Positions 13,526 to 64,000 of a DNA stretch of 64,000 nucleotides are shown here, in pieces (within the stretch, counting starts at the first letter, position 1; each line of letters starts with the position of its first letter). The stretch covers positions 62,001-126,000 of the forward strand of contig NZ_FNHL01000004.1 in NCBI RefSeq assembly GCF_900103715.1, written 5' to 3'. The notes under the pieces were generated by a model. The model did not search any database. It worked only from the letters and a program-made list of their open reading frames with translations, and had not been told where the DNA came from. The position numbers were made by a program, and so were the translations under genes. Source of the DNA: Halogranum gelatinilyticum (GTDB lineage Archaea; Halobacteriota; Halobacteria; Halobacteriales; Haloferacaceae).

Positions 13526-13535
13526 CGATAAATCT

Positions 13536-16828: not shown

Positions 16829-16837
16829 CAGTGAATT

Positions 16838-17746: not shown

Positions 17747-17887
17747 GATCTCGAGTAGGTGAAATACGTGTCTTCTTTGTCGGTTAAAACTGTTGTGCAA
17801 TCCTCATTAGCATGTGGACCCATTAGCAATTGGCAAGATTATTGCAATCCAATTAATACAAGGAACTGCCATATGCAATTGTAGCTA

Positions 17888-36172: not shown

Positions 36173-36256
36173 CCTGTAGCAAACACTGAACAAACTCCTC
36201 CCAGAAGGTGAGTGACCAACACATTTTCATTGTTGTGGGTACAACGTACATACAAC

Positions 36257-37048: not shown

Positions 37049-37106
37049 GTGTTGGAAGACAAGGTTAAGACCTCAAAAGTCGCGTGTGAAGCTGCCTGGC
37101 AAACGA

Positions 37107-44154: not shown

Positions 44155-44162
44155 TGTCGAAT

Positions 44163-45230
44163 CTAGGGGTCGTTCTTCGTACGTCGATACCGCGGCTGGT
44201 GCTCGTCGTCCTGTTCAAACCGCTTCGAGACGCGGCGCACGGTCTCGCGCTTCGCCGCTTGTCGTGCGCCCCGATATGCAACCGTACGCGCAACTGTTGG
44301 ACCGGCGACGGAGCCGCCGACGGCAACTGCACCGACGGTCCCGACGGTCCGTGTCGTTGCCGCAAGTACCCGCGATGTAAGCGGCGTCGCATACTGGAAG
44401 GTCTTCCACGAGAGAACCACGGCGACGACAGGCAGCGACGCCGCAACGAGAAATTGCAGGTAGACCGTCGTTGGCGAGAGAATCCCCTGCCCGTACAGGA
44501 GGTCGTACCCACGGAAGACGACAGCAGCCGGCAGGGGAAGCAATGCAAGTGGAATGAAACGCCTGCAGAACCCATCCGCAATGTCGGCGACGACTGGGAC
44601 GTTGCCGTAGGCGAGTGCGACAGCGATAGGCATCCCGTACAGGTAGACGTACAACAGTACGTGTCGGATGTAGAGAAACGCCTCAAGTGCCCACATCGAG
44701 AGCCCACCGACAGCGGCGACGACGAACGCGAGTGCGGGGTTCGAGATTGAGACGGTGAGAAAGCTAGTCATCGCCGTTGCAACCGACTGCACACTCGGAA
44801 GGAGTGCAATCGTGAGTGCTTCAACGAGGTACAGAGAGACCGAGCCAATCCAGTACCACATCACGACGACCATTGCACCGACCCACGCCGTCTTCGAAGT
44901 TCGCCGAGCGGCGTAGGCACTCCCGACGTTGAAGATACGCAGGGTGTGGCGAGCTTGGACGCACACCACGAGGATGAGCAAGGCAAGTAGCGTCACCTCG
45001 CCACCCACCAGTGCATCACGGAGTTGTGGCCACGGCGCGTTCGACGGGACGCCAAAGATGAACGAGCCGTTCGTCTCGGGCGTTGGCGTTCCAAACAACT
45101 CCGCTGAAAGCTGCTGATAGCCACCGTTGAGTCCGTCGATGAATTGGGCAGTAATCCACTCGAGCGCTTGCTTGAAGCCTTCGAGGACGACGTCGATTAG
45201 TTCAACCACAGTGGAACCTCCGGAGTCCAC
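44163..45230 (-). CDS. VirB6/TrbL-like polytopic membrane protein
   Basis: 355 residues. A first amphipathic segment is followed by six to seven membrane helices between about 75 and 285, and a positively charged C-terminus (RRTKNDP end). The size and helix density fit the VirB6/TrbL channel component. Eight bases separate it from the next gene. Function inferred from topology and operon. Confidence 0.7.
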   Translation of the reverse strand: MDSGGSTVVELIDVVLEGFKQALEWITAQFIDGLNGGYQQLSAELFGTPTPETNGSFIFGVPSNAPWPQLRDALVGGEVTLLALLILVVCVQARHTLRIFNVGSAYAARRTSKTAWVGAMVVVMWYWIGSVSLYLVEALTIALLPSVQSVATAMTSFLTVSISNPALAFVVAAVGGLSMWALEAFLYIRHVLLYVYLYGMPIAVALAYGNVPVVADIADGFCRRFIPLALLPLPAAVVFRGYDLLYGQGILSPTTVYLQFLVAASLPVVAVVLSWKTFQYATPLTSRVLAATTRTVGTVGAVAVGGSVAGPTVARTVAYRGARQAAKRETVRRVSKRFEQDDEHQPRYRRTKNDP

Positions 45231-45273
45231 GGTGGCGGCCGAAACAACTGCTCGTAGACGTGTTCTGAATCAT

Positions 45274-46917
45274 TCACAGAAACCTCTGAATATCGAAGAT
45301 ATTGAGGAAGGCTCGCCCGGCGGCGTAGACAACGGCAAACGGAATCAGGTTCCAGCTGACAGTGAGTGCGAGGTGCCACCAGCCACTGCGTGTCGACAGC
45401 GGGTGCCACCTAATCGTCTCAGTGGATGAGGCATACGCAGGCTCGGCCGTCAACCATGATTCGGGGTGGTATCGAACAGTGTACACACCCGGTTGCGAGA
45501 GGGTTACGGTGGCGACACCACTCGAGTTTGTCTCGACGCGTTGACCGGCAATCGTGATGTATCCATCTCGATCGTCGAATCTGATCGGTTGACTTCCACG
45601 CTCAGGGTCGGCAAGGACAATTGGGTCGCCAACGTCATGGTAGAGTTCAATCCGAACCGTCGCTTCCGAGGCGTCTTGCTCAACAACGCGCACCGAGAGA
45701 TTGCTCTCTCGAATGCGTGTCCGGTTCGTCGACTCCGCTACACGAGCCGTCACACCACGGACGATACCGATGACTCGAACGTCGTCGAGTGACCCAGATG
45801 ACGTCCGCACGGCAACACCGTATGAGGTCTTGTACGTCCCATCAACGACTTCGACACTGATGTTCTCTCCAAGCGTTTCCTCGGCACCACGGCGTTCGAT
45901 ACCCCAGACTCGCTGGAGTGTCGGTCCATCTCGTACCGGCTGTGTTCGCGGGCCAATTCGAGAGGGATACGCGTGGACGTACACCGGGTGTGCATCCGAG
46001 TGCTCCACTGTGGTCCCACCAGCGTTCGCACGAACCACTCGGTCCCACTGTGGATTCCGAGCGGTGTAAAATCGCCAGACGCCACGAACTCGGTGGTCAC
46101 TCATTCCGTCGAGGACATAGCCCTGCCACGGTAACGGCTGAAAGACCGCAATCTCCGTCTTACCGTTTGGATACGTCGCCGCCGATCCAACGGCGTCGAG
46201 ATCGTAGACAGTGACAGACTGTGAATCAGAGATGGTGAGAGTCTCCACTGATTCGTTTCCACCTGTCGTCTCGACACGGACCCGGATGTCCGCCTCCAGT
46301 GTGAGCGTCGTCGGACCGCCTGAGAGTTCGCCGTACGTCAGCGTCGGTGTCTGTGTGTCACTGACTTCGTCGATGACTCTCCCTTCTCGGAGCACCCTCA
46401 CTGCGGTGACCTCGTGGCTGACGACGCTGAGAGACTGATTACCCATCGTCTCTCGGATGCGGTAATCAACGAGGCCACGAACCGTGCCGTTCGGGGCGAT
46501 GTATAGCGGCGTCTCGCCTGAAGCGATGTGTGCTCGTGTCGAGGGCTGCACTGCAAACGTCGTCGCGTGGGCGTCGGCGATGTACGTCCCGTTCCGTGTA
46601 TCAGCATGTGGGGGATACACCGACTCCCGTACGCCACCGGGCCGGAGATCAGTGAAGTCATTTCGTGTCCACGTCGCCGCAGTCGCCGGTGGTCGCTTGA
46701 ACGAGATGTCCGTCGCTGCGGCAACTGCCTCGACACCCGTTTGAGAATTCTCTGGAACGCCTGTGTCGGCGTCGCGAGACCACACTGTCGCGGACTCGTT
46801 CTGTGAGAGTCCGTTATCCTCCCCCGACGCATTGTTGCCCACGACGACGCCAGCCCAAAGACTCACCACGACACAGACGGCGAACACCCCCGCAGCGAGC
46901 GAACGACAAGCAGACAT
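45274..46917 (-). CDS. Exported, C-terminally membrane-anchored surface protein of the conjugation module
   Basis: 547 residues. Residues 1-28 form a signal peptide-like helix ending AGVVVGNN, and a single membrane helix lies near 515-540 (HLALTVSWNLIPFAVVYAAG). Between them is a beta-rich extracellular region with Ig-like segments (for example ITIAGQRVETNSSGVATVTL). The Asn-x-Ser/Thr sites could be glycosylated. Likely contacts recipient cells or stabilises the pilus; that is inference. Confidence 0.68.
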   Translation of the reverse strand: MSACRSLAAGVFAVCVVVSLWAGVVVGNNASGEDNGLSQNESATVWSRDADTGVPENSQTGVEAVAAATDISFKRPPATAATWTRNDFTDLRPGGVRESVYPPHADTRNGTYIADAHATTFAVQPSTRAHIASGETPLYIAPNGTVRGLVDYRIRETMGNQSLSVVSHEVTAVRVLREGRVIDEVSDTQTPTLTYGELSGGPTTLTLEADIRVRVETTGGNESVETLTISDSQSVTVYDLDAVGSAATYPNGKTEIAVFQPLPWQGYVLDGMSDHRVRGVWRFYTARNPQWDRVVRANAGGTTVEHSDAHPVYVHAYPSRIGPRTQPVRDGPTLQRVWGIERRGAEETLGENISVEVVDGTYKTSYGVAVRTSSGSLDDVRVIGIVRGVTARVAESTNRTRIRESNLSVRVVEQDASEATVRIELYHDVGDPIVLADPERGSQPIRFDDRDGYITIAGQRVETNSSGVATVTLSQPGVYTVRYHPESWLTAEPAYASSTETIRWHPLSTRSGWWHLALTVSWNLIPFAVVYAAGRAFLNIFDIQRFL

Positions 46918-46939
46918 GAACTGAAGAATCAGTATCTGT

Positions 46940-47347
46940 CTACCACGGTGCGAGATTCACACAGTCGGCCAGTGGCAAGTTCATAATTTCCCCGGCGACG
47001 CTGTATAGCGACCCGAGCACGAGAAGAATCACTGCGGACTTCAGTGCCGAGCGTTTGTGTTCTTTGACGCCTTTCTTCTGTTTGGGGTTCAGGGTAAACA
47101 GCTCAAGAAGCGAATCAGCTTGCCAGACGATAACCAACCCGACGATGCCGAGACCAGTCGTAAGTTGAAAGAAGCCTTCAATGATGCCGGGGAGTTTACT
47201 CGTCTGGCAGATGGCGTTCGTCGTCGATTGGGCGAACGCTGGCTCAACGGCGACGAGTGCAAAGAGTGCGAGCGGAAGTGCTCTTCCCACCCACCGATGT
47301 GTTCGTGATGCTGTTCGACTCGTTGTAGTGTTGCCACTCTGTGACAT
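46940..47347 (-). CDS. VirB2/TrbC-like pilin
   Basis: 135 residues. The signal peptide RALPLALFALVAVEPAFAQS has a signal-peptidase site after AFA. The mature protein has two hydrophobic helices (about 62-82 and 105-125) separated by a short basic loop NPKQKKGVKEHKR, the classic VirB2 hairpin. Two Cys residues (about 47 and 129) may form a disulfide. First gene of the conjugation operon, consistent with high expression. Confidence 0.8.
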   Translation of the reverse strand: MSQSGNTTTSRTASRTHRWVGRALPLALFALVAVEPAFAQSTTNAICQTSKLPGIIEGFFQLTTGLGIVGLVIVWQADSLLELFTLNPKQKKGVKEHKRSALKSAVILLVLGSLYSVAGEIMNLPLADCVNLAPW

Positions 47348-50050: not shown

Positions 50051-51916
50051 TCAGCCGGTCGTCGATGAGAACAGCGTCTGCTGTACCACCAGCTGCTCAA
50101 TCACGACGAGAGCACCGTAGAAGACAACACTGGCTCCGACGGCCGCATAGGCCACGGTCTCGGTGGGAATCGCCGTCTGTAGTTGCGAGAGGCCGGTGAG
50201 CCGTACCGTGAAGTACGCCGTCCCGGCGAGGAGCGCGGCTCCTCCCCCGACGAGCACCCACGACCGGCGGAGCACTCTCGTACGTGACCGTCGGACGAGT
50301 AGCGCGAGGCCGCCGATAGCGACAGCGGAGACGACCAGAAAGAGGTCGGAGCCGAAAGCGATCGACGGGGGGAGAGCACCTAGGGTATGAGCGACCCACA
50401 CCAGATAGCCCGTCAAGACGGTGCCGGCGACGAAAGCGATCAGTCCGCCCCGGAAGAGCCGACCGGTCGCATCGACCGTCACGCAGACGAAGCCACACGC
50501 GACCGCGAGCTCGACGAGCGGCCGAACCACACCCACGTCGCCGAACGGGACGCCGACACCCGAGAGGAGAACTCCACCGGCGACCGCGATGCTCCCGGCG
50601 AGGCCGAATACGGTCGACGGTTCGTGGACGGGGACGTAGGACTCCGTCAGGTCGTCCAGTCGCCACTGCGCCTCGATGTGGAGGCTCCGAAGGACCAGGG
50701 TGTGGAGCCCAAACGCACAGAGCCCGGCGACTGCTGGGAGCCCCACAGTGGGTAAGGGGGGTATCGAGCCGACACCCCGCCCGGTCCAGTTCGCGACGGG
50801 GCCCAGCAACGGCAGCACGTAGCAGAGTCGCACGAGGTTCCCGAACGACATCGGCCCCGCGAGGGTTGCCCCGACGACACCAGCCACGCTCGCGAGTCCC
50901 CCGGCGAAAGACAGGAGACCGACGAGAGTGGGTCCGAGCCGTGCGCCGACCTCGGTGTAAACCATTCCGACGGAGGCAACTGTCAGCACGAATCCAACCA
51001 TCGCCAGCACGAGCCAGCGGTCGAAGCCGTTCTTCGCCATCCGCAATCGCGGGGAAATCCCCGCGAGTGGGATGACCGAACGGGTTCCGAGCGTCCAGCT
51101 GACGAGCGGCAGCTCCCGGCGGCCGAACCCGCGTTCGGCGAGCGAGTTCCCCCCGCGTATGAGGTTCTGTCCCCATAGGTCCTCGTCGTCAGATTCGCGG
51201 GGGCCTTCACCGTCCTCAGTCGCGAGTACAGGGTCGTATCCACGGAGCCGCAGTTCGGCTCGCCGGAGTGCCCGCTGGGTGGACCGAAGTGTCTCACCGA
51301 CGTCCTGAAGGGCTCGGCCGGCCACGACTTCAGTGGTCCCGACGGTGTCGGCAAGCCGTCGACGAACGCGTTCGACGACGGTTCGGGATTCTCTGTGTGC
51401 GACCCACGCAGCGAGCTCGTCGTCGTCAATCCCGAGTTCGCCTCGATAACGCCGATAGAACGCGACGCTCGTGTGGTTCCGTATCAGCCTGATGAGGTCG
51501 TGGCCGTCGATTAATTTCACACCCAGATCGGCTGCCCGGTCGTGCGCCTGTGAGGTGAACCGTCCGGTCGTGACGAGCAGCCCCTCGTCGGCGCCCACCT
51601 GATACTTCATCGCAAAGTACTGTTGGATCTCCGGGCTCCCGACTGTGTTCGACTCTTTGTACCGCTTCGCCTGTATCGCCGTTGTCTTCCCCATCGGTCC
51701 GCGTTTCCGTGCGATGACGTCAATCCCGTTGTCCCCGGATGAGGGCCGTTCGACGGTCTTGTACCCCATCTCCTCCCAGAGCTCGGCGACGAACCGCTCG
51801 AACCGGTCGTGGTCCATTCGTCGCAACGAGTGCAGCGACGGGTTCGGCGGAGCGATGTCGTCAGGTCCGGTTGCCGAAGCGTGCAACAGCCGTTCGGTGA
51901 GTCGTCTATCTGCCAT
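50051..51916 (-). CDS. Mrr-type restriction endonuclease fused to a polytopic membrane domain
   Basis: 621 residues. The N-terminal 150 residues are an Mrr catalytic domain (PD-(D/E)XK): DHDRFERFVAELWEEMGY, Asp in SGDNGIDVI (61-66) and Gln-x-Lys in AIQAKRY (81-87). That is the usual Mrr pattern and suggests DNA cleavage. After a basic helical linker (about 150-285) come some nine to ten membrane helices up to the C-terminus. ATG 51916 is preferred because CGAACTTATTGG on the minus strand (51947-51936) looks like BRE/TATA about 25 bases upstream. A GTG at 52018 overlapping the previous stop is the alternative. Confidence 0.8.
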   Translation of the reverse strand: MADRRLTERLLHASATGPDDIAPPNPSLHSLRRMDHDRFERFVAELWEEMGYKTVERPSSGDNGIDVIARKRGPMGKTTAIQAKRYKESNTVGSPEIQQYFAMKYQVGADEGLLVTTGRFTSQAHDRAADLGVKLIDGHDLIRLIRNHTSVAFYRRYRGELGIDDDELAAWVAHRESRTVVERVRRRLADTVGTTEVVAGRALQDVGETLRSTQRALRRAELRLRGYDPVLATEDGEGPRESDDEDLWGQNLIRGGNSLAERGFGRRELPLVSWTLGTRSVIPLAGISPRLRMAKNGFDRWLVLAMVGFVLTVASVGMVYTEVGARLGPTLVGLLSFAGGLASVAGVVGATLAGPMSFGNLVRLCYVLPLLGPVANWTGRGVGSIPPLPTVGLPAVAGLCAFGLHTLVLRSLHIEAQWRLDDLTESYVPVHEPSTVFGLAGSIAVAGGVLLSGVGVPFGDVGVVRPLVELAVACGFVCVTVDATGRLFRGGLIAFVAGTVLTGYLVWVAHTLGALPPSIAFGSDLFLVVSAVAIGGLALLVRRSRTRVLRRSWVLVGGGAALLAGTAYFTVRLTGLSQLQTAIPTETVAYAAVGASVVFYGALVVIEQLVVQQTLFSSTTG

Positions 51917-52014
51917 CGAATCGACACCTACGTGACCAATAAGTTCGGGTCGTCTGACAAATATGTGCCGCCACAAGCGGGAGGGCTCGCCGCCCTCGCC
52001 GGACGCGTGAGACG

Positions 52015-53793
52015 TCACCGGCCGAGCGACTGGAGAAGTAACCCTGCCCCACGGAGCGGCGTCGGTCCCGAGAGGTCAATAGCACGGCCGTCGACCGACG
52101 GGTCGGTGACGCCGTACCAGAGGACGTACGGACGGTCCGGTGACACCACGGTTTCGAGGAGTTGGCACTCTTCGGTACTGAGGTCTTCGTACACACTCGA
52201 CTCCGTCAGATAGCGTCTCCTGACAAATTCAGCGAAGTCGCGTGGAAAAATGTTGTCGAGCGTCTCAAGGCTGTCTTGGGTTGCGTACTCGAAGTGGTTG
52301 ACTGCCAGGTCGGCCATCGTCACGACGGGCCTGACGTTCGTCGTGTTCGACGTCGCTCGATGGAGACCCTCGTACGCACGGAGGTACGACGAGGGAGCCT
52401 GACGCTGGGGGCGGCCGACGTCGACGAGGACGGTCCCCTCTCGACGGTACGTCGGATAGACCCGTTTCGCCGTCCCCCCATGTGAGACGGCGAGTTTGTC
52501 CAGTTCGTCGCTGGAGGGGACGCCGTCGTCCCACTGTCGTAACCGCGTCGACAGCGACGCCGGATACAGTGTCCGGTCGGCTGGATGTTCGACGACCGTC
52601 CCGACGAAGTCGTCCAGTGGCAGCACACAGAGGACGTCGTCGGCGACAGTGGTAGCATCGGCGACTGCCTCGGTGTACCGACCTGCCGATTCGGCGTCGT
52701 CGGCACTCGCGATGGCGTCGCGCCACCGTGTCCGAGACTGGCCGGTCAACCGCCGGACCCAGCGTTCGGTCCGTGAGTCTGTTCCCGCGTTGGTGTCTTT
52801 GGTCGCGTCGACGATTCGGTCCAGTTCCCCCGGGTCACAAACGACGGCGAGTTCGACGTGTGTCGGGAAGAACCGTCCCAGCCGGTACCGGAGAACGTGT
52901 GTCTGCCAACGACTCTCGCTCCCCTCGTGATCCGGTTCGGGAAACCGGCCGTCGTCGGTCAACAGTTGTTCGAGTTCCGTGACTGTCTCTGGGTCGTCAA
53001 GACGGTCCGCGCCGAGCACGCTCAGGTCCTTCACGGCCCGTCGCAGTCCCCCCGCGACGGAGCGTCGACCGCTCGAATGTGGTCCAACGAGGAGAGCACG
53101 TCGGGTTCGTTCGACCGACGACACCGTCAGGACGGAGACCGCTCCGAGCGTCGAGAACCCGCCCAGAGCGATGGCGACGACGCCAGCGACGGGTCGCCCC
53201 CCAGAGACGGCCATAGAGACGCCGGTCAGACAGTAGCCACCGCCGAGGAGGACGACGGCAGCGACGACGGCGTACTGGACGACGGAGTCGCCCGAGACCG
53301 GACCGTACCGGGTGTCGACGACGCCCGACTCGAGAGAGACCGCCGCGACGAACGTCGAGATGCCCGCCAAGACGACTAGTGCCAACTGGAGTGGTGTACT
53401 CCCGACGACGGCCTGCACGACGGGGACGGGACTGACGAGGAGTCCGACGACCAGGCTCCCGCCGGTGACGACTGTGGCTGTCCAGGTCCGTCTTGTGTAG
53501 TCGACTCCAGCGACAGCACCGAAGACGCTGGCGAGCACCGGTCCCCAGCCGCCGACAGGGCCGAAGACGGTGGTGAGTAGGGCCCAGACACCACCGAGCG
53601 GCCACTGACTCGCGACGGCCGTCTGATAGCCCGTCGCCAGCGTTCCGGTGGCCGCCGCTCCGAAGGCAATCAGCGAGAGGAGTACCGACAGTTCCCACTG
53701 GGAGTAGCTCAGACGTCCCTCGTCGACAAAGTAGAGAGGATTCCAAGAGGATGGCCAACTGTCCACTAATTGAGTAGAACACAACAGTGACAT
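52015..53793 (-). CDS. Membrane protein with degenerate NTPase-like cytoplasmic domain
   Basis: 592 residues of unknown family. Six or seven membrane helices lie between about 33 and 225. The soluble part begins with ALLVGPHSSGRRSVAGGL (233-250), which looks like a Walker A loop with Lys changed to Arg. Later segments DDVLCVLPLDDFV (385-397) and VRPVVTMADL (487-496) resemble the Walker B and base-recognition strands of a G domain. The protein at 57350-58825 has the same layout and motifs. Divergent from the tubulin-like gene with a 101-base spacer. GTG 53764, about 29 bases after CATATATG, is an alternative start. Confidence 0.62.
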   Translation of the reverse strand: MSLLCSTQLVDSWPSSWNPLYFVDEGRLSYSQWELSVLLSLIAFGAAATGTLATGYQTAVASQWPLGGVWALLTTVFGPVGGWGPVLASVFGAVAGVDYTRRTWTATVVTGGSLVVGLLVSPVPVVQAVVGSTPLQLALVVLAGISTFVAAVSLESGVVDTRYGPVSGDSVVQYAVVAAVVLLGGGYCLTGVSMAVSGGRPVAGVVAIALGGFSTLGAVSVLTVSSVERTRRALLVGPHSSGRRSVAGGLRRAVKDLSVLGADRLDDPETVTELEQLLTDDGRFPEPDHEGSESRWQTHVLRYRLGRFFPTHVELAVVCDPGELDRIVDATKDTNAGTDSRTERWVRRLTGQSRTRWRDAIASADDAESAGRYTEAVADATTVADDVLCVLPLDDFVGTVVEHPADRTLYPASLSTRLRQWDDGVPSSDELDKLAVSHGGTAKRVYPTYRREGTVLVDVGRPQRQAPSSYLRAYEGLHRATSNTTNVRPVVTMADLAVNHFEYATQDSLETLDNIFPRDFAEFVRRRYLTESSVYEDLSTEECQLLETVVSPDRPYVLWYGVTDPSVDGRAIDLSGPTPLRGAGLLLQSLGR

Positions 53794-53863
53794 ATATGTG
53801 GTACGGTTGTAAAGTTCCCAATCGAGCGCGTGACGAACGTGTCAAAAATAAATGGTTGGGAAG

Positions 53864-53873
53864 ATTTTATTAT
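53864..53873 (+). promoter_or_regulatory. TATA box of the tubulin-like gene
   Basis: ATTTTATTAT lies 22-31 bases before the ATG at 53895, preceded by a purine-rich GGGAAG that may serve as BRE. The distance predicts a leaderless mRNA. It is one of the few AT-rich spots in this GC-rich cluster. Confidence 0.5.
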
Positions 53874-53894
53874 GGGCCACCGTAAGAAACAGCC

Positions 53895-56800
53895 ATGGCT
53901 GTCAACAACAACGGGGAATACCGTGCCCAGATTCCCGATACGATCATCGGGATCGGGGGCGGGGGCAAATCCGTCGTGTACACGCTTCTTGACCAGGATT
54001 GGATCCTCAAAGAGGCACTGGAACCTCGTGACGATACAGCTACCCCGGGGTTCAACCCCGTTGTCGTCGACTCCGAGAGCGGAGCGGGCAACAATGACGA
54101 CTCGCTGGCTAAAGAATACTCGGAGCGGATCGACGAGTTCGCCACGAGTCTCGGACACAACGCGAATAGCTCGGAGCTCACCTACATCAACACCGTCGAG
54201 GAGAGTTCGGTCCAGGATACGGTTTCGTTGACCGACGGGACACCCGTCAACGAGATCGCCCGCGCTTCCAACCTCCGCAGTTGGTGGGTCGACGACTCCG
54301 ACCGGATGATCGACACCGACGACAACTTCGCGGAGGGTGTCAACCGACGTCGGGCACTGAGTAAGGCGTTCTTCCACGGAACCCGAGCGAACAGAGACCC
54401 GTTCAACGAGGTCGTCAACCACGCAGGGACCTCCGTCTACATCGTCGTCGGGCTCGGTGGGGGGACTGGTTCGGGGACCTTCCTCGATCTGGCCCGGCGG
54501 TTCGACGACAACACCTCGGTCCATCTGTTCGGAATCCTCCCCGGTCAGAATGCCGGATCACAAGAAGACGCCAACGCCCACGCTGCCCTCTCTGAACTCG
54601 AATATCTCTCGCTCACCGACAACCTCCCGTTCGACAACGTCGTCATCGTCCCGTTCGCGCCGGCGACGGACTACGGCGACTTCGACGAGGCGGTCGTCAA
54701 CGCGATGATCTCTCACGCCAACATCGCCGAACAGGGAGTAATCAACAACCACGCAGACTTCTTCAATCCCGGTGAGGGAGCGGCAGTCAAGAAATTCGCC
54801 CCGTTCACCATCGCGGTCCCCAAAACCTTCCACATCGACGTTCCAGAGATCGAGGAGGCTGCCGAGAAAGTTGAGTCGTACGTGACCCGAATCGAGGGCG
54901 CGCTCGACACCGAGGAGGCGCTCTACAACAGGATCGAATCGATCCTCCTGCGTCCCGAGGATTTCGCCGAAGAGCGCACTGGAGCGTTCGAAACGGGGAG
55001 TCTCCCGGGCGACGTACGAGAGGCGCAAGACGCGCTCAGAGAGAGCCTCGACGGCGGCTCCCCCGAGTCCACGCTGTTCCAGTTAGACACCGGTGAGGCC
55101 GAACGGCTCGAAGAGCGACTCAACAACCTGCGTTCGTTGCTCGAAAAGGAGATTTTCGATGATCTGAACTTCCTCGGACCGGCAGGACTCGCAAACAAGA
55201 TCGACAACACCGAAGACCAACTCGATGTCCAACGCGAAGACGTCAACGATGTCGAGTACTTCGAGCGCCTCGTCGACAAACTGTATCGGGTCTTCGAGAC
55301 GCTGAGCGTTGAGGACATCCTCGACGCTGGAAACCGTAACGTCGACCAGACGGACCGAGAACTGACCAAACAACTCAAGCGAGAGATACTCCTCATCGGG
55401 AAACGGAGCACCTTCCTCCGAGCACTGCACGTAATCGAGGACGACAAACCCCTCCGACGTGGGCTGCAGGCGGCTATCGGCCCGAAAGTTGAGAACTTCG
55501 CCATTGTCGACGACGCTGACCGCGCACGGCGGGACCTTCTGAGTGCGGAGTCCCGTGAGCAGAACTGTCTCGAGGCACTTGAGTCGGCACTGACTGATTC
55601 ACAGGACGAACTCGAACGAGCCCTCGAAGAGTGGGAGACGTCCGTCGAGCCGGATGTCGACCGGCTTCTGTACATCGACTCACACCGCGACGAGATTGAA
55701 GAACTCCTCGCGAAGCTGAACCGGAAGATCGGACAGGCCGTCACCGACCTCAAACGTCCGGGGAACGAAGCACCCGCCCGACAGCCACTGGACTTCGACG
55801 AGTTCGGCAAACTGAACAATATGCTGAAATCCGCTGGCGGCGAGCGCGTCCCCCAAGATGCCATTCTAACGTCGCTCAAGAACCTCTCGAACATGAGGCG
55901 GGCGAAGATCGAAGACGAGGACGGTGGGGGATACATTCCGTTCCTCGGAAGCAACAACAACAACTCCGATCCGGAAGGCGACTACGAGAACGCCCTCATC
56001 AACGTCAACGATCAACTGTTCGACACGGAGCCAGAGTTCCAGCGGAGCTTCGACGTTACGTTCGTCGGGGAGGAAGCCATCGAGAGCCGACTCGACGACG
56101 TCGACAAGGCCCGGCGCGAGGCAGTCGAAGCGATCCTCGAAGACCTCGACAGCTACACCCAACAGACCGTCGGGTTCGAGGAACTCGTCGACGACCCGTC
56201 GGATCTCGCGAAGTGTGAATTCGACATCACGCTCGGACTGAAGCGCCACCAGAACGACTACAAACATACGCTGAAGAGCGAGCTCAATCGAACGTTCACT
56301 GAGACGACGACGAGCTCCCTCCTGCGGGACCTGACTAGATCCGACGACGGGCAACGCGGTTCGTCGGAGATCGATAACGTCGTCAGACAGGCACTCTCGG
56401 CGGCTATCGTCGATCCGATACAGGACTCGCTAGAATCCCGACGGGCGAGTTTGGTCGACGACCAGATCCGGCTGAGCCTCTTCGATTCCGTCCGCGACCT
56501 CGTCAACGAGGAGGGCAAAGAGTTCACGAACAACCGGAGCATCGAGATATCGCTCGACGTGAGCTTCAGCGAGCAAGCGCGGGCAGCGAACCCGCACAAA
56601 GAGCGAATCTCTCCGCACAACCGCGGGACGTTCGTCGGCTACGACGACATCGAGGCGGCCGATATCCTCGACAACGACCGGGAGATGGAGCGGCTGCTGG
56701 CGAAGTTCAGCCAACAGGCCACTTCCATCGCTGCAGGCGACGATATCGCGCCGATACTCAACCCAAGTCTCAGGCGACATAAGGGAAAGAAGGTCTCGAA

Positions 56801-57329
56801 CGCGTCACCGTACTACGAGGGACAGGTAATCAAATCGGTATTCCTCTCCCGGGCGTTCGGAGAGTCACAACAGGCCAACGCGAACCTGACGCTATTCAAC
56901 GACGAACTCAAGAACAACGGCTTCGACGGCATCCGCTTCCAAGAGAACATGGAGTTCTACAACGAGATGCAGGTCGCGTACGGCGCGCCGTGGGACATCA
57001 CGATGACGACGTTCGTCGGCGGGGTCTTCCTTGACAACCTAGCACCGGCCGGAAGCGTACGGAGCGGCTACCTGCAAGCCTACAGAGGCCAGCGTGACGA
57101 ATTCGGCGAAGACATCATCGTCCGTCACGTCCACGGTCTCGACGGCCACGACAAGTATCTCGACCTCGATTTCAACGAGGGCGCGTACGTGTACCGTGAC
57201 GAGCTCGTCAACGTCCTCGGAGACGAACGGGATCTCTTCACTCTCGGTAACGAAGACGACATCGCGAACGAACTCATCGAGAAGTACACCGTGACTCGCT
57301 TCGACTCGCCGGTGCCGTTAGAAGAGTGA
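53895..57329 (+). CDS. Giant tubulin-superfamily protein (Tubulin_2-like)
   Basis: 1144 residues, about three times the size of FtsZ or CetZ. The N-terminal 350 residues look like a tubulin/FtsZ GTPase: DTIIGIGGGGKSVV (15-28) at the T1 loop, VVVDSESG as the next strand, VVGLGGGTGSGTFLDLARRF (184-203) containing the GGGTGSG signature, and LFGILPGQNAGSQED. The remaining 800 residues are helical and acidic with coiled-coil stretches (about 400-470, 520-620), then a C-terminal beta-rich part near 980-1144. It resembles the poorly known Pfam Tubulin_2 group of large tubulin-like proteins. No signal or membrane segment. First gene of a plus-strand operon with the next two. Confidence 0.85.
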   Translation: MAVNNNGEYRAQIPDTIIGIGGGGKSVVYTLLDQDWILKEALEPRDDTATPGFNPVVVDSESGAGNNDDSLAKEYSERIDEFATSLGHNANSSELTYINTVEESSVQDTVSLTDGTPVNEIARASNLRSWWVDDSDRMIDTDDNFAEGVNRRRALSKAFFHGTRANRDPFNEVVNHAGTSVYIVVGLGGGTGSGTFLDLARRFDDNTSVHLFGILPGQNAGSQEDANAHAALSELEYLSLTDNLPFDNVVIVPFAPATDYGDFDEAVVNAMISHANIAEQGVINNHADFFNPGEGAAVKKFAPFTIAVPKTFHIDVPEIEEAAEKVESYVTRIEGALDTEEALYNRIESILLRPEDFAEERTGAFETGSLPGDVREAQDALRESLDGGSPESTLFQLDTGEAERLEERLNNLRSLLEKEIFDDLNFLGPAGLANKIDNTEDQLDVQREDVNDVEYFERLVDKLYRVFETLSVEDILDAGNRNVDQTDRELTKQLKREILLIGKRSTFLRALHVIEDDKPLRRGLQAAIGPKVENFAIVDDADRARRDLLSAESREQNCLEALESALTDSQDELERALEEWETSVEPDVDRLLYIDSHRDEIEELLAKLNRKIGQAVTDLKRPGNEAPARQPLDFDEFGKLNNMLKSAGGERVPQDAILTSLKNLSNMRRAKIEDEDGGGYIPFLGSNNNNSDPEGDYENALINVNDQLFDTEPEFQRSFDVTFVGEEAIESRLDDVDKARREAVEAILEDLDSYTQQTVGFEELVDDPSDLAKCEFDITLGLKRHQNDYKHTLKSELNRTFTETTTSSLLRDLTRSDDGQRGSSEIDNVVRQALSAAIVDPIQDSLESRRASLVDDQIRLSLFDSVRDLVNEEGKEFTNNRSIEISLDVSFSEQARAANPHKERISPHNRGTFVGYDDIEAADILDNDREMERLLAKFSQQATSIAAGDDIAPILNPSLRRHKGKKVSNASPYYEGQVIKSVFLSRAFGESQQANANLTLFNDELKNNGFDGIRFQENMEFYNEMQVAYGAPWDITMTTFVGGVFLDNLAPAGSVRSGYLQAYRGQRDEFGEDIIVRHVHGLDGHDKYLDLDFNEGAYVYRDELVNVLGDERDLFTLGNEDDIANELIEKYTVTRFDSPVPLEE

Positions 57330-57349
57330 GGCTGTCGTAATCCTCACTT

Positions 57350-58825
57350 ATGACCCGTTCACGCGTTTACGACGGTGCGCTGTTGGTCGTGTCGATAGCC
57401 GTGATGATCCTCTCTGCGAGGCCGTTCACAGGACTATTAGTCGACGCGTGGTCAGTTGAAAGCAGCGTCGTCGCCGCCGCCGTAACCGGCTTCCTCTCGG
57501 CCATCGGAGCGACTCTCGCGTCTGCAATCGCGTTCACGACCGGACTGCTCGGTGTATTCATCCTGTTGTTCCTGTTCGACTCGTCAAAGAAGGTTCAGGC
57601 ACTCGTCTTCGTGCTCGCGCTCCCGCTGTTCTTCACCACGTTGAACCGCTTCGACCTGTGGACAATCCCGTGGACACGAGAACTGATTCCGTTGGCGGTC
57701 GGGGTTGTGGTTGCTCTTCCCATCGGAACCGCCGGTGCGCGGGTCGACACCGAGTCCGACGGCGCGATCCCGCGAGTTCGGGAGTTCCCAGCGGCGACAC
57801 GGGCGATTTACTGGATCGTCGTCGTCTCAGTCCTCGTGGCACTCGTCCAGGTACACGTGTTGGCCGGGCAACCAGGCATCGTACTGAACGTGGTCCTCTC
57901 CGGGGCCATCGTCGCACTCACTGCCGTGTTTACGACGTATCAAGACGACCGGTCGGTCCTCATCATCAGTCCCGATCCGTACGAGGAGGCGAACGTCCTC
58001 GGAGGGATCTATCAGGAAGCGAGAAGCCGCTTCGGAGCCGAGGCGATAAACGAGGGGAGTTCGATCGCGACCGAAGACGTCTCCGCGCTGGGCCGTGCAC
58101 GAAAGCTCACGGCCCCCGACCTCGACCTCGACCAGAGTTCGGGGATGACGGTCGCAGCAGCGGCGAAAGAACATCTCGTGGAGATCCGTGGCGACGCCGG
58201 GTTCAGGTTCCGTGCGCCCGGTGTGTTCGGCCGAACGCTCGAAATCATCGCGCACGGATACGGCCCGGACGACATTCGACGCGAAGACTTGGACGCGCTG
58301 GACGACAACGGCCAGTCGTCGCGCCTCGACTCGCTGCGACGACGTGTCGTCGACTTCGCCGGGTTCGTCCTCCCAGCGATGCTCCCGGCGTTCGTCCGAG
58401 AGCGGCTCACCGGTGGCCCGACGAAGAGCATTGGTGAGGCGATACGAGACGCCGACATCCTCCTCCTCGTCGCCCCGCTTGACGACCAGGTCGCCGAGGG
58501 AGCCGCGACGCAGGACGCTGGCGACAGATCGACGGTACTCGGCAAGTACGACGCAATCTGTGGGTCGGACGCTGTGAAGGAGAAGACAGTTCGGATGGTC
58601 GTCACGGACAGCCACCGGCTGAAAGACGAGTTCGAGGAGAAACGGAACGCGTCGACCAACTCACCGCCGTCGAAGTATCTCCGTCGTTTCGGGCGGTTCT
58701 TGAACCAGACGAGGTTGGGGAACACGTGCTGTGAGGTCGTCCCCGTCTTTCGAGTGCTCAACTCAGAACGAGAGATGGACACCCGACTCTGGGGTGCCAG
58801 CGAACTACTGGAGGAAGTCTATTGA
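57350..58825 (+). CDS. Membrane protein with degenerate NTPase-like cytoplasmic domain (second copy of the architecture)
   Basis: 491 residues. About six membrane helices lie between 8 and 197, then a cytoplasmic domain starting SVLIISPDPYEEANVLGGIY (202-221) where a P-loop would be expected but the Gly/Lys are missing. DADILLLVAPLDDQVA (367-382) and VRMVVTDSHRL (414-424) follow. The PLDDxV and VVT motifs match those of the protein at 52015-53793. It starts 20 bases after the tubulin-like gene, so the two are in one operon. I infer a membrane anchor or receptor for the tubulin; no enzymatic activity is evident. Confidence 0.62.
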   Translation: MTRSRVYDGALLVVSIAVMILSARPFTGLLVDAWSVESSVVAAAVTGFLSAIGATLASAIAFTTGLLGVFILLFLFDSSKKVQALVFVLALPLFFTTLNRFDLWTIPWTRELIPLAVGVVVALPIGTAGARVDTESDGAIPRVREFPAATRAIYWIVVVSVLVALVQVHVLAGQPGIVLNVVLSGAIVALTAVFTTYQDDRSVLIISPDPYEEANVLGGIYQEARSRFGAEAINEGSSIATEDVSALGRARKLTAPDLDLDQSSGMTVAAAAKEHLVEIRGDAGFRFRAPGVFGRTLEIIAHGYGPDDIRREDLDALDDNGQSSRLDSLRRRVVDFAGFVLPAMLPAFVRERLTGGPTKSIGEAIRDADILLLVAPLDDQVAEGAATQDAGDRSTVLGKYDAICGSDAVKEKTVRMVVTDSHRLKDEFEEKRNASTNSPPSKYLRRFGRFLNQTRLGNTCCEVVPVFRVLNSEREMDTRLWGASELLEEVY

Positions 58826-58927
58826 CACGAACCCACGACACGGCTGGCCGCGTACAGACGTATCGACGACTGTTGACTCACCAGAGTGTTGTCTCGGCCA
58901 CTCAGAGAACGCTGAGGAGGAGCGTCG

Positions 58928-61900
58928 ATGACTAACGAGGAGTCGATAGACGGACTAATCGAGGGGCTAACCGACGCCGGCTATACGCACCGGACGACAC
59001 TCACGTCGAAGCTGTCCGGACCGACCACCGCCGACACGACGCGTCTCGGCACGTTCACGACCGACGGGCGGGTCTGTGTCCTCGACGTGGGTGAGTCCGA
59101 TCCGTCGCCCGTACCGGGGTTTGTCGCCGAGGACCCAACCGACATCTGTTTCGGTCGTGGCGACCAGCTGTACGTCCTCGACGGGTCGGCGGTCGTCCCA
59201 CTTATCGCGTCCTCCGGTCCGATTGGTGTCCGGTGGGACCAGTGGTCGAACCTCCGACGTATCGACGCGTTCGACGGTGAACCATCGCTCGCTGCACTCA
59301 CCGAGCAGGGTGACGTTCTCCTGTTGAGCGCACAGGATGGGCGGGAGCGAACCAGAATCGAACAGCGGCTCGGCTCATCGATACACGGAGAGCACTTGTT
59401 GACTCACCGAGAGCGGGTGTTCACCGCTGTCGGTGAGACGCTGACGTGTCATGACTACCGGGGGAACTTCGAGTTCGACGTGGCACTTAGTGCGCCCGCG
59501 GTGGCGATGGCGGTACTGAACTCACGGGTCGTGGTCGCGTGTGCCGACGACCACGTGTACTGGTACGACTTCGATGGCGACGAGAGAGCCTCAGTCGACG
59601 AAACTATCGACACGTTGGAGGCGGTCGGCACGTCGATGGTGTTGGGCAAACGTGATCGTTCGCTCGTCGCTTGTGGGAAGGGTGGAACGGTTGAACCACT
59701 GACGGAGATCGGAACGAGGGAGATGGCACACACGGTTGATGGGAAACGGCTACTCGTCTTGGGTGACGAGAGCGCGCTCTTCGAATACGATGCAACGCCG
59801 CAAACGAAGGTCTTAGCCGACAGCGTGGCTGTCGGAACGGGAGAGATCGCCATCGAACTCGTGAACCCACACCCGATTCCACACGACTTTACCGTGGCTC
59901 TCTCTGCTGCGGACGTGGATGCGGAATCCGCGTCACAGTACAACGTGACGGTGGCACCGGCGACAACCGAAGAGGTGGAGTTCCCGCTCGGTGAGTTCGC
60001 CAGCGACCCGGGGACGCTACTCGTCGAGACACAGTCTTCGGAGGGACAGGAAGAGGTCTCCGTACCCGTCGTCTCACAGCGGGTGCACGATACTGAGTTA
60101 CCCCTCTCCCAACCCGAACGCCCTACCGACGAGAGAGATCTGGGCTCGCCCGATTCGACGACGAACCCACAACGAGAGACCGTAGATGTAGATCGCGGGG
60201 ACCGGTCGAACAGGCCACCGGTTCGCTCGGGGTCGCTGAGCGATCCGAGGCTCCAGCAGGGGACCGAAGATACCGAGACGTCCGAATCCGAGGCGGACGG
60301 CTCAGAAGCGGATGGGACCGAGGTGGGTCCCACGCCGTCCGGCGATGCGGAGGCCGACGAAACGGTGACGGACTCTCACCACGGCCGCGAGACGGTGGGG
60401 GGTGGGACTGAGTCGTGGGGAAGAGAGGAGTCGTCGAGTCCGTTCGAGTTCACAGAACCGAGTTCGGAAGCGAGTCCGACCGAAGTCGCGGAGACTGCTG
60501 ACTCTGGAGAGCGGGTCCCCGAGTCGGAGGCCGCAGCTGGCCACGCTGACGACCCGGGAGACACTGACGAGCAGTCCGGACAGCGACCGGCTGCAGGCGG
60601 TTCTTCGCCGTCGCCGGGAGACGGGAAGGCACCGACCGAATCCCTGAACGAACCACCGGTCGAAAAGATCGACGTCAACATCGACCTGGTCACGGTCGAG
60701 AATGGCCGGGGGGTCGCGGAGGTGACGCTTCGGAACCACACCCCGGCCGAGTTCGAAGACGTTTCGCTCCCGGACTGTCCACGAAACGTCCAACTTGACA
60801 CCGACTTGCCGACGGTACTTCCCGCCGGGCGGACCGCGTCATTCCGCATCGCGGGTCCGCTCTCGGCCGTCAGCGAGTTCGCGGTCAGCCCACGAATCCG
60901 GAGCTTCGAAGTCGGGACCACCACGCTGGAACTCCCCGAGGAGGTGCTCCGAATCGAACTCAAGGATCACGGAGAAGACGCGGCCGGTCTGTCCGTGCAA
61001 AACGAACTCGCCGTGCCGGTTACCGATACGGTCCATCTCTCCGTCACCCGTCCGGACGGTGACAAAGTCGGAGAGTGGTCGTACAAGACGACGTTCCGTC
61101 CCGGTCGGACCAACGTCCAACTACCGGTCGCACCGCTCGTTGAGCGGGGAGCGTCCGTGGTCACTATCTCGATACTCGGTGTCGACACACGGTCTGAGGT
61201 ATCCCTCGACCGGTTCACACCGTTCTCGTCGGTTACCTGTACGAACCAGATGCTGTGTCAGTCTCAGGATGACGAGAACGGTGAGATACGAGTGCACAAC
61301 GAACAGTACGCTTCGGAGTCTAAGAGCCGTTTCACGGGACCGGTCGTCGACATCATCGAGATCGAAAACGGCCGCTCGGAGCCGCTCGAAGCGGTACAGG
61401 TCCTCGACTTTCGAAATCCCGCGGGGTCGTCGTCGACGTTCGATATCCCCGCATCCGAGACCCGGAAGATAGCCAGACTTTGCGATTTCTCCGGGGCAGA
61501 GTCAACGGTTCCGGCAATCGGAGTCGAAGCGGACGACGGTCGACATCTCGACCAGCGAGGGTCGAAGCCAATCCGGACGACGTCAAAGGTGATCGATGCG
61601 CGTGTGCGAATCCAACCGTTCGACGAGGATTCGGTTCTCGTCTCACTGGCGATCGATGCGGAGTTACCACGGTCCGTCGATTCGCTTCGGTTGACCACAT
61701 TCCGAATCACAAAGGGGCCAGTGTCGATTAAGCTCTATCCGAAGCTCGAAGTCGAGACAGGGCGTACGTACACGACTCACGTGGTGTCAGCGGACGTGAG
61801 TTCACTCCGTGGCCAGCATCCGCGTGTCGATCTCACGTTCGCCGACGGCAGCCGTGAGATCTCGGACATCACCACCGTTGCCGATCTGGTCCCGGAGCCG

Positions 61901-62311
61901 TTTCGGGGACCGCCGGTCGAACTGGAACGTGTAACACAGGGCGAAAGTCGAGAAGATCTCACGATCGCCGTGCGGACGCAGTCGGACTGTCCGGCGGTCA
62001 CGGTCCAGGAGGTGACCGTGCTTGTCGATGATGGCACCGTTACCCCCCGTCAGTCGGACGATGCCGAGGGGAAGCGTCGATTCGACGTGTCCGTCCCGTT
62101 GGCTGACAGAGGAGAGATCCCCGTCGAACTCGTCTACGAACGACGAACGGGACCGAAAGAGACCGCACAGTACGTCGTCAGGACGACGGAACCCGGGGAC
62201 GTGGAGTTGGTTGCGGGTGACGTTCCGATGTCGGAGTTCTTCGGTGAGGGCTGGCCGACGCCCCTGTGTTCGTACTGGAGCGTCTTGGACCCCGACCGCA
62301 CTCAACGGTAG
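58928..62311 (+). CDS. Large cytoplasmic protein: beta-propeller-like, disordered linker, beta-sandwich repeats
   Basis: 1127 residues without signal peptide or membrane segment. Residues 40-290 show repeated strands of a beta-propeller type (for example GTFTTDGRVCVLDV, SLAALTEQGDVLLLSA, RVVVACADDHVYWYDFDG). Residues 295-385 look like an Ig/CARDB-like sandwich. Residues 390-590 are a low-complexity Glu/Ser/Asp/Thr linker, and 595-1120 hold four or five further beta-sandwich units (for example VENGRGVAEVTLRNHTPAEF). A GAGGAGG Shine-Dalgarno-like site ends eight bases before the ATG. Likely a scaffold in the tubulin system. It meets the next gene tail to tail with no spacer. Confidence 0.62.
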   Translation: MTNEESIDGLIEGLTDAGYTHRTTLTSKLSGPTTADTTRLGTFTTDGRVCVLDVGESDPSPVPGFVAEDPTDICFGRGDQLYVLDGSAVVPLIASSGPIGVRWDQWSNLRRIDAFDGEPSLAALTEQGDVLLLSAQDGRERTRIEQRLGSSIHGEHLLTHRERVFTAVGETLTCHDYRGNFEFDVALSAPAVAMAVLNSRVVVACADDHVYWYDFDGDERASVDETIDTLEAVGTSMVLGKRDRSLVACGKGGTVEPLTEIGTREMAHTVDGKRLLVLGDESALFEYDATPQTKVLADSVAVGTGEIAIELVNPHPIPHDFTVALSAADVDAESASQYNVTVAPATTEEVEFPLGEFASDPGTLLVETQSSEGQEEVSVPVVSQRVHDTELPLSQPERPTDERDLGSPDSTTNPQRETVDVDRGDRSNRPPVRSGSLSDPRLQQGTEDTETSESEADGSEADGTEVGPTPSGDAEADETVTDSHHGRETVGGGTESWGREESSSPFEFTEPSSEASPTEVAETADSGERVPESEAAAGHADDPGDTDEQSGQRPAAGGSSPSPGDGKAPTESLNEPPVEKIDVNIDLVTVENGRGVAEVTLRNHTPAEFEDVSLPDCPRNVQLDTDLPTVLPAGRTASFRIAGPLSAVSEFAVSPRIRSFEVGTTTLELPEEVLRIELKDHGEDAAGLSVQNELAVPVTDTVHLSVTRPDGDKVGEWSYKTTFRPGRTNVQLPVAPLVERGASVVTISILGVDTRSEVSLDRFTPFSSVTCTNQMLCQSQDDENGEIRVHNEQYASESKSRFTGPVVDIIEIENGRSEPLEAVQVLDFRNPAGSSSTFDIPASETRKIARLCDFSGAESTVPAIGVEADDGRHLDQRGSKPIRTTSKVIDARVRIQPFDEDSVLVSLAIDAELPRSVDSLRLTTFRITKGPVSIKLYPKLEVETGRTYTTHVVSADVSSLRGQHPRVDLTFADGSREISDITTVADLVPEPFRGPPVELERVTQGESREDLTIAVRTQSDCPAVTVQEVTVLVDDGTVTPRQSDDAEGKRRFDVSVPLADRGEIPVELVYERRTGPKETAQYVVRTTEPGDVELVAGDVPMSEFFGEGWPTPLCSYWSVLDPDRTQR

Positions 62312-63898
62312 TCAGGCCTCAACGAGCCGGTAGTCGGGGCTGCGCAGCTTCCACAGATCGTTTAATTGTGCCTGAAGCCGTCTGTCCTCATACATCGATT
62401 TGATAGCCGACAACATCATCTCTGCCGCGATCGTCATCCCCATCGCCCGCTCTTGCTCACCCTGCTCTCGTGTGCGGCCGGCCTCCGAGAGCAACGAGCT
62501 GATCGCGTTTGCGAAGTGGCTCGGGATCCGATTGTTGTATCTCTCTCCCCTGCTTCCGTTGATGTAGGCATCCCGGTACGCTTCGAGCTCCTGTTTGCAT
62601 GCCGCGTGTCTCTTGTCGACGTCCGTCTCTTCGTCTTCGACCCGTCCGACGAAGTCGCCGATGACGTCCTCGAGGAGGCTCACCCGAGTATCGACGAGAT
62701 ACCGCTGAAGGAGCTGCATATCCTCGTCGAGCCGGTCGCGTTCTCGCGTCAGACGCTCGGCCATCTCGGCCCCGAAGTAGTGGTCGATGGCCCGACACTG
62801 CTCTATCAGCGACGCTACCTTCCGGTCGATGTCTTCGACGGAGGATGCCGCGCCGAGTTGGCCTTGGACGATGCGGTGCTCGTCCAGTGTCTCGGCCGTC
62901 GCTCGCAGTGTCTCTGTAACCGCTTCGACCGATTCGGAGGGATCCGAGAGCACCTCACACAGACGGCGTGCCTCCGGGGCACTGAGCGTCTCTTCCTGTG
63001 AGACCCGTGTCGCCGCCTCAAGCGCAGTACGACGGCCGATCCGGTCGTCGTCGACATCGCTGATGATCTGTTGGAGCGTCTTGTCGCTGTTCTTGCTCGT
63101 CTCGACTCCGATTTTCGTTCCCAGTTCCTCGATGCGACTGGCTTGTTGGCTCAACTGCTCACGGTGTTTGATATATTGGCTCAGGAGCGTTTCGGTCGAT
63201 CCGAGGAACGACTCTACGTCACCGGTACCGACCGGCTTCCGTCCGAGTTCCGCCCGCTGTCGTTTGAGGCTCTCTTTCGCCTGCTCTAACTCGGCTTCCG
63301 AACTCGTCGCCGGCGACTTGTCGAAGTTCTCCGAGAGTTGCGAGAAGAGCTGCGCGATGCGCTCTGACTCATGGTTTTCGCTTTCGAGGTCGTCTATCCT
63401 GTCAACCGTGTCTTCGAGTGATCGGACGACGCGCTGGTGGTTGTGTCCGTTCTGTCCGTACTCTTCTAACTCGTCTACGACGGTGCGGATGGCAGCGACG
63501 TTACCGTGGTCGACGTCCTTCGAGAGGGTCTGCAACCATCTATCGTTCACTCCCTCGTCGGCGCGGACGATTTTGTCGCCTTCGACGCGAGTCGAGAGTC
63601 TCGCCGCGAGCGTCCGTGCGTTTGCGGGACGTCTGATGTCCAACTCGAGATTCTCGTGGACAGTCTCCAGTTCGGACCGTGTCTCCTGGAGTCGTGTCCG
63701 CAACTGCTTCCCGCGGAGTCCGAGCAACAGCGCTATCGCCACCAGACCCACGACCGCAAGGAGTGATGCCCACGACGAACTCCCGACTGCGGTCGACGAA
63801 CCGATTCCGAGTAGCGTGGCAAGTACGTAGACGACGGCGACTCCCACGGCGGCGGCGGTCAGAGCGACATCGAAGGTGAGATTTCGCATCCGCATCAT
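62312..63898 (-). CDS. Membrane-anchored coiled-coil protein
   Basis: About 528 residues. Two N-terminal membrane helices (about 10-30 and 40-60) are followed by KQLRTRLQETRSELETVHEN and a long alpha-helical region with several coiled-coil stretches (about 65-90, 155-215, 245-275, 370-450). No catalytic motif seen. ATG 63898 overlaps the stop of the upstream gene (TGATG); a GTG one codon earlier is possible. Its stop abuts the stop of the propeller gene. The layout suggests a membrane tether or length-spanning partner in the cluster; function unknown. Confidence 0.62.
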   Translation of the reverse strand: MMRMRNLTFDVALTAAAVGVAVVYVLATLLGIGSSTAVGSSSWASLLAVVGLVAIALLLGLRGKQLRTRLQETRSELETVHENLELDIRRPANARTLAARLSTRVEGDKIVRADEGVNDRWLQTLSKDVDHGNVAAIRTVVDELEEYGQNGHNHQRVVRSLEDTVDRIDDLESENHESERIAQLFSQLSENFDKSPATSSEAELEQAKESLKRQRAELGRKPVGTGDVESFLGSTETLLSQYIKHREQLSQQASRIEELGTKIGVETSKNSDKTLQQIISDVDDDRIGRRTALEAATRVSQEETLSAPEARRLCEVLSDPSESVEAVTETLRATAETLDEHRIVQGQLGAASSVEDIDRKVASLIEQCRAIDHYFGAEMAERLTRERDRLDEDMQLLQRYLVDTRVSLLEDVIGDFVGRVEDEETDVDKRHAACKQELEAYRDAYINGSRGERYNNRIPSHFANAISSLLSEAGRTREQGEQERAMGMTIAAEMMLSAIKSMYEDRRLQAQLNDLWKLRSPDYRLVEA

Positions 63899-64000
63899 CA
63901 CTGGTCGAGAACCCGTCCGATACCGAGATGGTCACAGATTGCGTCGATGTCATTCATGCGCTTTTTCAAGTCGTCGTAGATGTCCATGTGGCTGAACATC
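63898..64000 (-). CDS. C-terminal end of a gene running off the right edge
   Basis: The last 33 codons of a minus-strand gene are visible, ending DHLGIGRVLDQ. Its stop codon overlaps the start of the coiled-coil membrane gene, so they are co-translated and the cluster continues beyond the window. Too short to assign. Confidence 0.6.
   Translation of the reverse strand, partial: MFSHMDIYDDLKKRMNDIDAICDHLGIGRVLDQ

Follow-up and report, generated by a model that had tools for sequence, protein, structure and literature searches.

Two separate haloarchaeal tubulin modules are joined in a locus of Halogranum gelatinilyticum that looks like an unstudied membrane-attached tubulin machine

The FtsZl1 family of tubulin-like proteins was described in 2010 with a haloarchaeal protein of 1051 amino acids (aa) as its founder, and membrane remodeling was proposed as its role (Makarova and Koonin, 2010; PMC2875224). 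At that time T6-H7 and the C-terminal domain were not identifiable in FtsZl1, and a vWA-domain gene was noted near FtsZl1 in the majority of predicted operons (PMC2875224). A role as the threshold switches of conflict systems has been proposed for GTPase-centric systems (Kaur et al., 2020; PMC7159879). The locus considered here lies at the end of a 64,000-nucleotide stretch of Halogranum gelatinilyticum DNA (NZ_FNHL01000004.1, positions 62,001–126,000; genome of 3.77 Mb, labeled G000), hereafter the window. It consists of two separate haloarchaeal tubulin modules that are joined, with two tubulins and not one, and looks like an unstudied membrane-attached tubulin machine instead of a single system of seven genes. 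The kind of system, which the original prediction put forward as new, had already been described in the form of FtsZl1 and of the GTPase-centric tubulin systems (PMC2875224; PMC7159879). What is new is the contiguity of two tubulin modules, which arose in three distinct arrangements.

Open reading frames for the predicted gene inventory were all recovered, with products of 655, 592, 1144, 491, 1127 and 529 aa and a partial seventh. The region also is GC-rich as claimed, the last ~14 kb having a G+C content of 0.59–0.65 whereas most of the remaining window has 0.40–0.59, and stop and start codons overlap by 4 nt in the pairs P0001/P0002 (52015–52018) and P0006/P0010. The seventh product, taken previously for a coupled, truncated partner, is cut by the window edge only: it is a full 560-aa tubulin, P0010, that is followed by P0011. 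The genes fall into two sets. Module A (P0003, P0004, and P0002) unites an FtsZl1 giant tubulin with two membrane GTPase-like proteins that belong to the DO-GTPase2 family. Module B (P0005, P0006, P0010, and P0011) is here a reduced form, composed of a propeller/sandwich protein, a coiled-coil protein, a tubulin and a membrane coiled-coil protein, of a larger conserved operon. The original prediction had treated all seven genes as one functional unit, a view to be abandoned if the partners occurred routinely without the tubulin. This is the pattern found for genes of the P0005, P0006, P0010, and P0011 types, which make up a different, independently distributed operon that lacks an accompanying giant tubulin in 24 of 28 genomes, and the single seven-gene unit was rejected on this distribution.

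The giant tubulin P0003 (53895–57329, plus strand; 1144 aa) matches Pfam Tubulin_2 (PF13809) above the cut-off with an E-value of 1.6e-11, which bears out its earlier description as tubulin-like and identifies it by sequence as a member of the FtsZl1/Tubulin_2 family. Its GGGTGSG loop is near-invariant across 51 relatives, with G188–G190, G192, G194, and D198 invariant, and a possible T7 loop (D918...D923, E930) is partially conserved, with E930 retained in 94%. An AlphaFold2 model built on the 51-row alignment (mean pLDDT 81.4) contains helices at residues 316–882, one of them 90 residues long, that correspond to the long helical extension of the FtsZl1 family. The model has the overall two-domain tubulin fold of CetZ and FtsZ (3zid, 4b46, 2vap; Z ~20). 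Superposition on CetZ aligns 309 of 342 residues at an rmsd of 3.6 (Z 20.8), and superposition on tubulin aligns 357 residues (Z 18.5); the aligned ends fall near residues 2–14 and 1044–1119. The model thus predicts a complete but split FtsZ/tubulin fold comprising an N-terminal GTPase domain, a helical insertion of ~600 residues and a C-terminal domain, the last being placed in the final ~180 residues because nearly the whole target is covered. Unlike CetZ and FtsZ, with which it shares 12–17% identity, P0003 has this large insertion and a different gene context. Its giant size, N-terminal FtsZ-like domain with a coiled-coil or helical extension, haloarchaeal host and position beside membrane-associated GTPases are those of FtsZl1 (PMC2875224). 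In contrast to FtsZl1 as known in 2010, the C-terminal tubulin domain is predicted at the extreme C-terminus, the P0003 clade has a duplicated GTPase with a dead copy (both copies appear dead in the window) and the unit in the window is contiguous with a second tubulin module. Furthermore, unlike most FtsZl1 operons, no vWA domain was detected with Pfam among the scanned window proteins, whereas one is present beside some relatives. Full-size relatives of the giant tubulin are patchily distributed, in 31 of 242 haloarchaeal genomes (species representatives, as in all haloarchaeal samples here), and a tubulin–GTPase pair was located in 73 distinct loci. A membrane-associated system with a giant tubulin at its core therefore does recur, which upholds this part of the original prediction.

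P0004 (57350–58825, plus strand; 491 aa) is a small membrane protein encoded directly 3′ of P0003, and P0002 (52015–53793, minus strand; 592 aa) is a large one in which N-terminal transmembrane (TM) helices, assessed like all TM segments here with a crude hydropathy window, precede a TRAFAC-type domain. Pfam returned no domain in P0002 and a sub-threshold match in P0004. The relatedness that had been proposed for the two proteins was confirmed with a profile of the P0002/P0004 family, which selected P0002 at an E-value of 8e-19. Pfam DO-GTPase2 was matched by 19 of 39 P0002/P0004 relatives (best E-value 3.6e-6); P0002 itself scores nothing against this model and is linked to it through the family profile, and by these matches both proteins are assigned to the DO-GTPase2 family. 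The predicted fold of P0002 resembles the YcjX, Era, Rag, and Rab GTPases (VIA-align Z 11–12.5) and is modeled as TRAFAC-type; no Foldseek match to the model reached an E-value of 0.001, and the likeness to GTPases is that given by the VIA-align Z. The degeneracy attributed to these domains also was borne out. The P-loop of P0002 reads GPHSSGRR where GxxxxGKS is expected, P0004 has no GxxxxGK[ST], the P-loop lysine is lost in both proteins, and DPGE is kept in P0002 alone. Neither protein combines a Walker A P-loop with a glutamate after the Walker B aspartate, the features by which an active GTPase would be recognized.

The P0004-family gene lies directly 3′ of the giant tubulin gene in most of 38 sampled loci, and a giant tubulin gene followed by a membrane GTPase-like gene on the same strand is the arrangement in the 73 distinct loci mentioned above. 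Pairs of the P0003–P0004 type occur in methanogen, Methanoperedens, and Geoglobus loci as well, and the adjacency is kept across Euryarchaeota. The P-loop was surveyed in 89 distinct family members, consisting of the 73 tubulin-side copies and 16 copies elsewhere in the loci. It is intact in 59 of the tubulin-side copies, mostly in single-copy loci, and in 14 of the 16 others. The 14 loci in which the tubulin-side copy lacks it nearly all have a second copy, and the tubulins of these loci form one clade in a FastTree tree in which support at the base of that clade is uninformative owing to root placement. These sequences indicate that in one clade the GTPase was duplicated and every tubulin-side copy lost its P-loop, and that in H. 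gelatinilyticum the P-loop was lost from both copies. A spare intact DO-GTPase encoded elsewhere was rejected because no third or intact copy was found in the rest of the genome. Two giant tubulins of the degenerate-GTPase clade (loci L049 and L067) have no adjacent GTPase gene, and a locus of Haloparvum sedimenti (L046; genome G195) has three GTPase-family copies, a giant tubulin, a 1167-aa coiled-coil protein at the GAP1 position and an Mrr-membrane gene.

The second tubulin of the locus, P0010 (minus strand; 63898–64000 in the window and on to ~65580; contig 125898–127580; L004:15899–17581), matches Pfam Tubulin with an E-value of 2.6e-11, has an N-terminal C2H2-like zinc finger and has homologues in 26 of 234 haloarchaeal genomes. 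The adjacent P0011 (L004:17588–19543; 651 aa) combines four TM segments with a coiled coil; like all genes beyond the window it was called with our own caller, for which small genes may be wrong. P0006 (62312–63901, minus strand; 529 aa), a two-TM coiled-coil protein, belongs to the K2 family; in the remaining haloarchaeal loci of module B, the K2 gene adjoins that of the P0010-type tubulin. P0005 (58928–62311, plus strand; 1127 aa), a propeller and beta-sandwich protein, has weak propeller matches in Pfam and was selected at an E-value of 4.8e-21 by the profile of a family (F33) that ends the full module B in several genomes. Gene order in module B is near constant: K1 (P0011 type), K0a (P0010 type), K2 (P0006 type), K0b, a small two-TM protein, K4, K3, K0c, and K5, after which come two more secreted or membrane proteins and a convergent P0005-type propeller/sandwich gene. 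As K0b and K0c also match Pfam Tubulin (E-values 8.2e-14 and 7.3e-10; 52.8 and 39.9 bits, compared to 44.6 for P0010 and a cut-off of 33), the full module B is an operon with three tubulin genes, and a conserved D-x-x-D motif stands at the expected T7 position in all three products. The signal-peptide or TM proteins of the module have sandwich-like regions that are predicted to face outward. The larger three-tubulin form was found in 24 of 234 haloarchaeal genomes, almost always without a giant tubulin, and a short form with the P0005, P0006, P0010, and P0011 types together, the same set as in the window, is present at locus L106. K1 to K5 and the tail genes are carried on plasmid PHS2 of Halobacterium salinarum R1 (L212; OE_RS12075 to OE_RS12025), where K0a and K0b are annotated as 'cell division protein FtsZ' and K0c (OE_RS12040) as 'hypothetical protein'; the three tubulin genes there are OE_RS12070, OE_RS12060, and OE_RS12040. 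Lower-scoring matches to the K0b profile extend to further families within the phylum; one distant family (f16; G274–G464) has tubulins of ~300 aa that match at 1e-20 to 1e-42.

Tubulin-like copies in quasi-tandem with coiled-coil neighbors have been reported as Halo.Tub paralogues of Halobacterota (Santana-Molina et al., 2023; PMC9871819). The module B tubulins share this description and probably are the same proteins. Unlike the account of module B given here, the available portion of the Halo.Tub text describes neither the anatomy of an operon nor its partner families, and makes no link to FtsZl1; no prior description of the anatomy of the module B operon was found in the open-license literature.

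A membrane-tethered tubulin assembly is the likely role of the locus. The membrane GTPase/pseudo-GTPase pair would tether the giant tubulin to the inner face of the membrane and gate it there. The complete but split fold of the giant tubulin would allow it to assemble with GTP, and the module B tubulin, with membrane coiled-coil partners of its own to hold it, would form or extend this same membrane-attached assembly. Since both GTPase copies look nucleotide-dead in H. gelatinilyticum, it is the tubulins of the locus that NTP would drive. Assembly may be switched on by an envelope signal, or by a misfolded or foreign component, and in a few lineages the Mrr-membrane protein could serve, optionally, as an effector that cuts DNA. 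As an explanation of the entire locus, a two-module membrane-anchored tubulin assembly is held with even confidence. Several observations weigh against it. Neither a GAP1-type nor a vWA gene was recognized in the window locus, and a search of the genome for GAP1-N2 gave no match. Conservation of the T7-like acidic residues in the giant tubulin is only moderate (D918 60%, D923 50%). At the level of genomes modules A and B are not enriched together, with four genomes observed compared to ~3.6 expected by chance. In addition polymerization, a defense phenotype and an interaction between the tubulins are predictions only. As to output, roles in defense or cell death and in the envelope are about equally open, with a slight lean for module A toward a conflict (defense-type) role.

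One alternative is that the locus is an anti-virus or anti-plasmid conflict system, in which the GTPase–tubulin core would serve as threshold switch and an effector, either the Mrr-membrane protein or membrane proteins, would kill or halt the infected cell; this is possible, if doubtful. Module A resembles the systems with DO-GTPase and GAP1-N2 proteins in its paired DO-GTPase2 proteins with TM segments and its tubulin with a helical extension, and Hsp70, GrpE, DnaJ-type, and vWA genes adjoin module A in relatives, as in those systems (PMC7159879). The presence of these genes beside the tubulin fits the threshold-switch proposal, and the family placement beside GTPase-centric conflict systems and the patchiness of the giant tubulin point in the same direction. 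The tubulin theme of PMC7159879, in contrast, was described from firmicutes and actinobacteria, and the conflict role of its systems itself is a genomic prediction. The GAP1-N2 domain was not recognizable in 13 archaeal GAP1-position proteins and profile comparison gave no support, so that membership of the locus in the GAP1-N2 systems was rejected; it nonetheless probably works in a similar way. A stretch of the Haloplanus rubicundus plasmid pCBA1112-01 (L213) encodes vWA, Hsp70, GrpE, a giant tubulin, both GTPase copies and a propeller protein, and is an archaeal counterpart of the bacterial tubulin/HSP70 themes. At the GAP1 position, distant haloarchaeal FtsZl1 loci (L057–L063 and similar) carry kinase, propeller, and carboxypeptidase-regulatory-domain fusions, and methanogen loci carry PEGA-like proteins instead.

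The nuclease on which the conflict role could draw is P0001 (50051–52018, minus strand; 655 aa), in which an Mrr-type endonuclease domain is fused to a multi-TM domain (~8 TM). The predicted fusion was substantiated by a match to Pfam Mrr_cat over the full length of the model (aa 65–179; E-value 2.4e-30) and by the D..QxK motif (GIDV...IQAKR) of Mrr-type endonucleases. Such a gene adjoins module A in two genomes, H. gelatinilyticum and Haloparvum sedimenti. However, the TM half is confined to 3 of 234 haloarchaeal genomes. Module A is present in each of these, and in the third (Halobellus salinus, G048) the gene is solitary. P0001 is a rare accessory and not a core part, missing from nearly all relatives, and is the one gene behind the idea of a nuclease effector. 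PADLOC matched the generic Mrr domain plus two very weak hits and nothing else; as this domain was the sole good match, a known defense system was rejected.

A second alternative, on a par with the conflict system, is that the locus is a membrane-remodeling or envelope/cytoskeletal apparatus for vesicles, cell-surface assembly or shape, as proposed for FtsZl1 in 2010, with module B and its predicted surface sandwich proteins as the trans-membrane part. Most partners are membrane proteins, the outer regions of the signal-peptide/TM proteins in module B are sandwich-like, the tubulin fold of the P0003 model is complete, and in the more distant haloarchaeal form protein kinases are found alongside (PMC2875224). 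A patchy and often plasmid-borne distribution nevertheless speaks against a core envelope function, and vWA and kinase genes are absent from the window copy.

It is somewhat less probable, and unlikely overall, that modules A and B are unrelated accessory modules in a shared gene-capture hotspot or mobile region, each working alone and adjacent by accident. The giant tubulin is present in 31 genomes and K0a or K0b in 28, with both in four (G000, G042, G048, and G173), the number expected by chance as given above; in G173 the modules are on different contigs. Plasmid-borne examples of each module are known, and a conjugation-like cluster (TraG/TrwB, TrbL) lies ~3 kb upstream of the locus in the window. 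By contrast, the modules are contiguous in three of the four sampled genomes that have both, a proportion based on small counts, and the arrangements differ. In the window module A is followed by the propeller gene, which is convergent with K2-K0a-K1. In G042 K0b is head to head with a module A GTPase gene. In H. salinus (L135) K0b-K4-K3-K0c-K5-tail is convergent with propeller-GAP1-like-GTPase-GTPase-tubulin; Halobellus sp. Atlit-31R shares this arrangement, and a Halorubrum contig ends within the tail gene that adjoins module A. Moreover, the module B that adjoins module A in G042 and G048 is missing its K1-K0a-K2 part. The variety of these arrangements favors a working link, with a shared insertion hotspot as the less probable cause, and the contiguity counts in favor of the two-module tubulin assembly.

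A bolder extension of that assembly appears improbable at present. It is a haloarchaeal composite membrane machine of up to four tubulin-superfamily proteins, heteropolymeric and envelope-spanning, that would be partly present in Halobacterium salinarum. Its putative parts, proposed with equally low confidence, are a giant split-fold tubulin, which a GTPase/pseudo-GTPase pair would drive, and three smaller tubulins that would have membrane and surface proteins of their own. A viral origin was rejected, as IMG/VR yielded relatives of neither the giant tubulin nor K0b.

Elsewhere in the window, the conjugation-like cluster (36212–47347) contains genes for a TraG/TrwB coupling ATPase (37107–39953), a VirB4/TraG-like ATPase (41001–43070), and a TrbL_3 protein (44163–45209; E-value 4.7e-117), together with a small antitoxin-like gene and a PIN-domain gene (36212–37048). 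Polysaccharide biosynthesis genes, including those for a UDP-sugar dehydrogenase and a flippase, occupy 10111–17800 at a lower G+C content of 0.40–0.52.

No experimental study of FtsZl1, a family proposed in 2010, was found in the open-license literature. The predicted complete but split fold of P0003 would answer the question left from that time of whether the C-terminal domain used in filament formation is present. Module B provides an archaeal operon with three distinct tubulins, and because it is carried on a plasmid of the model organism H. salinarum R1, its function is directly testable. The composite four-tubulin, envelope-spanning machine, if true, would be an apparatus not described so far, and a membrane GTPase with a dead copy beside a tubulin would, if true, be an unusual way of regulating a cytoskeletal filament.

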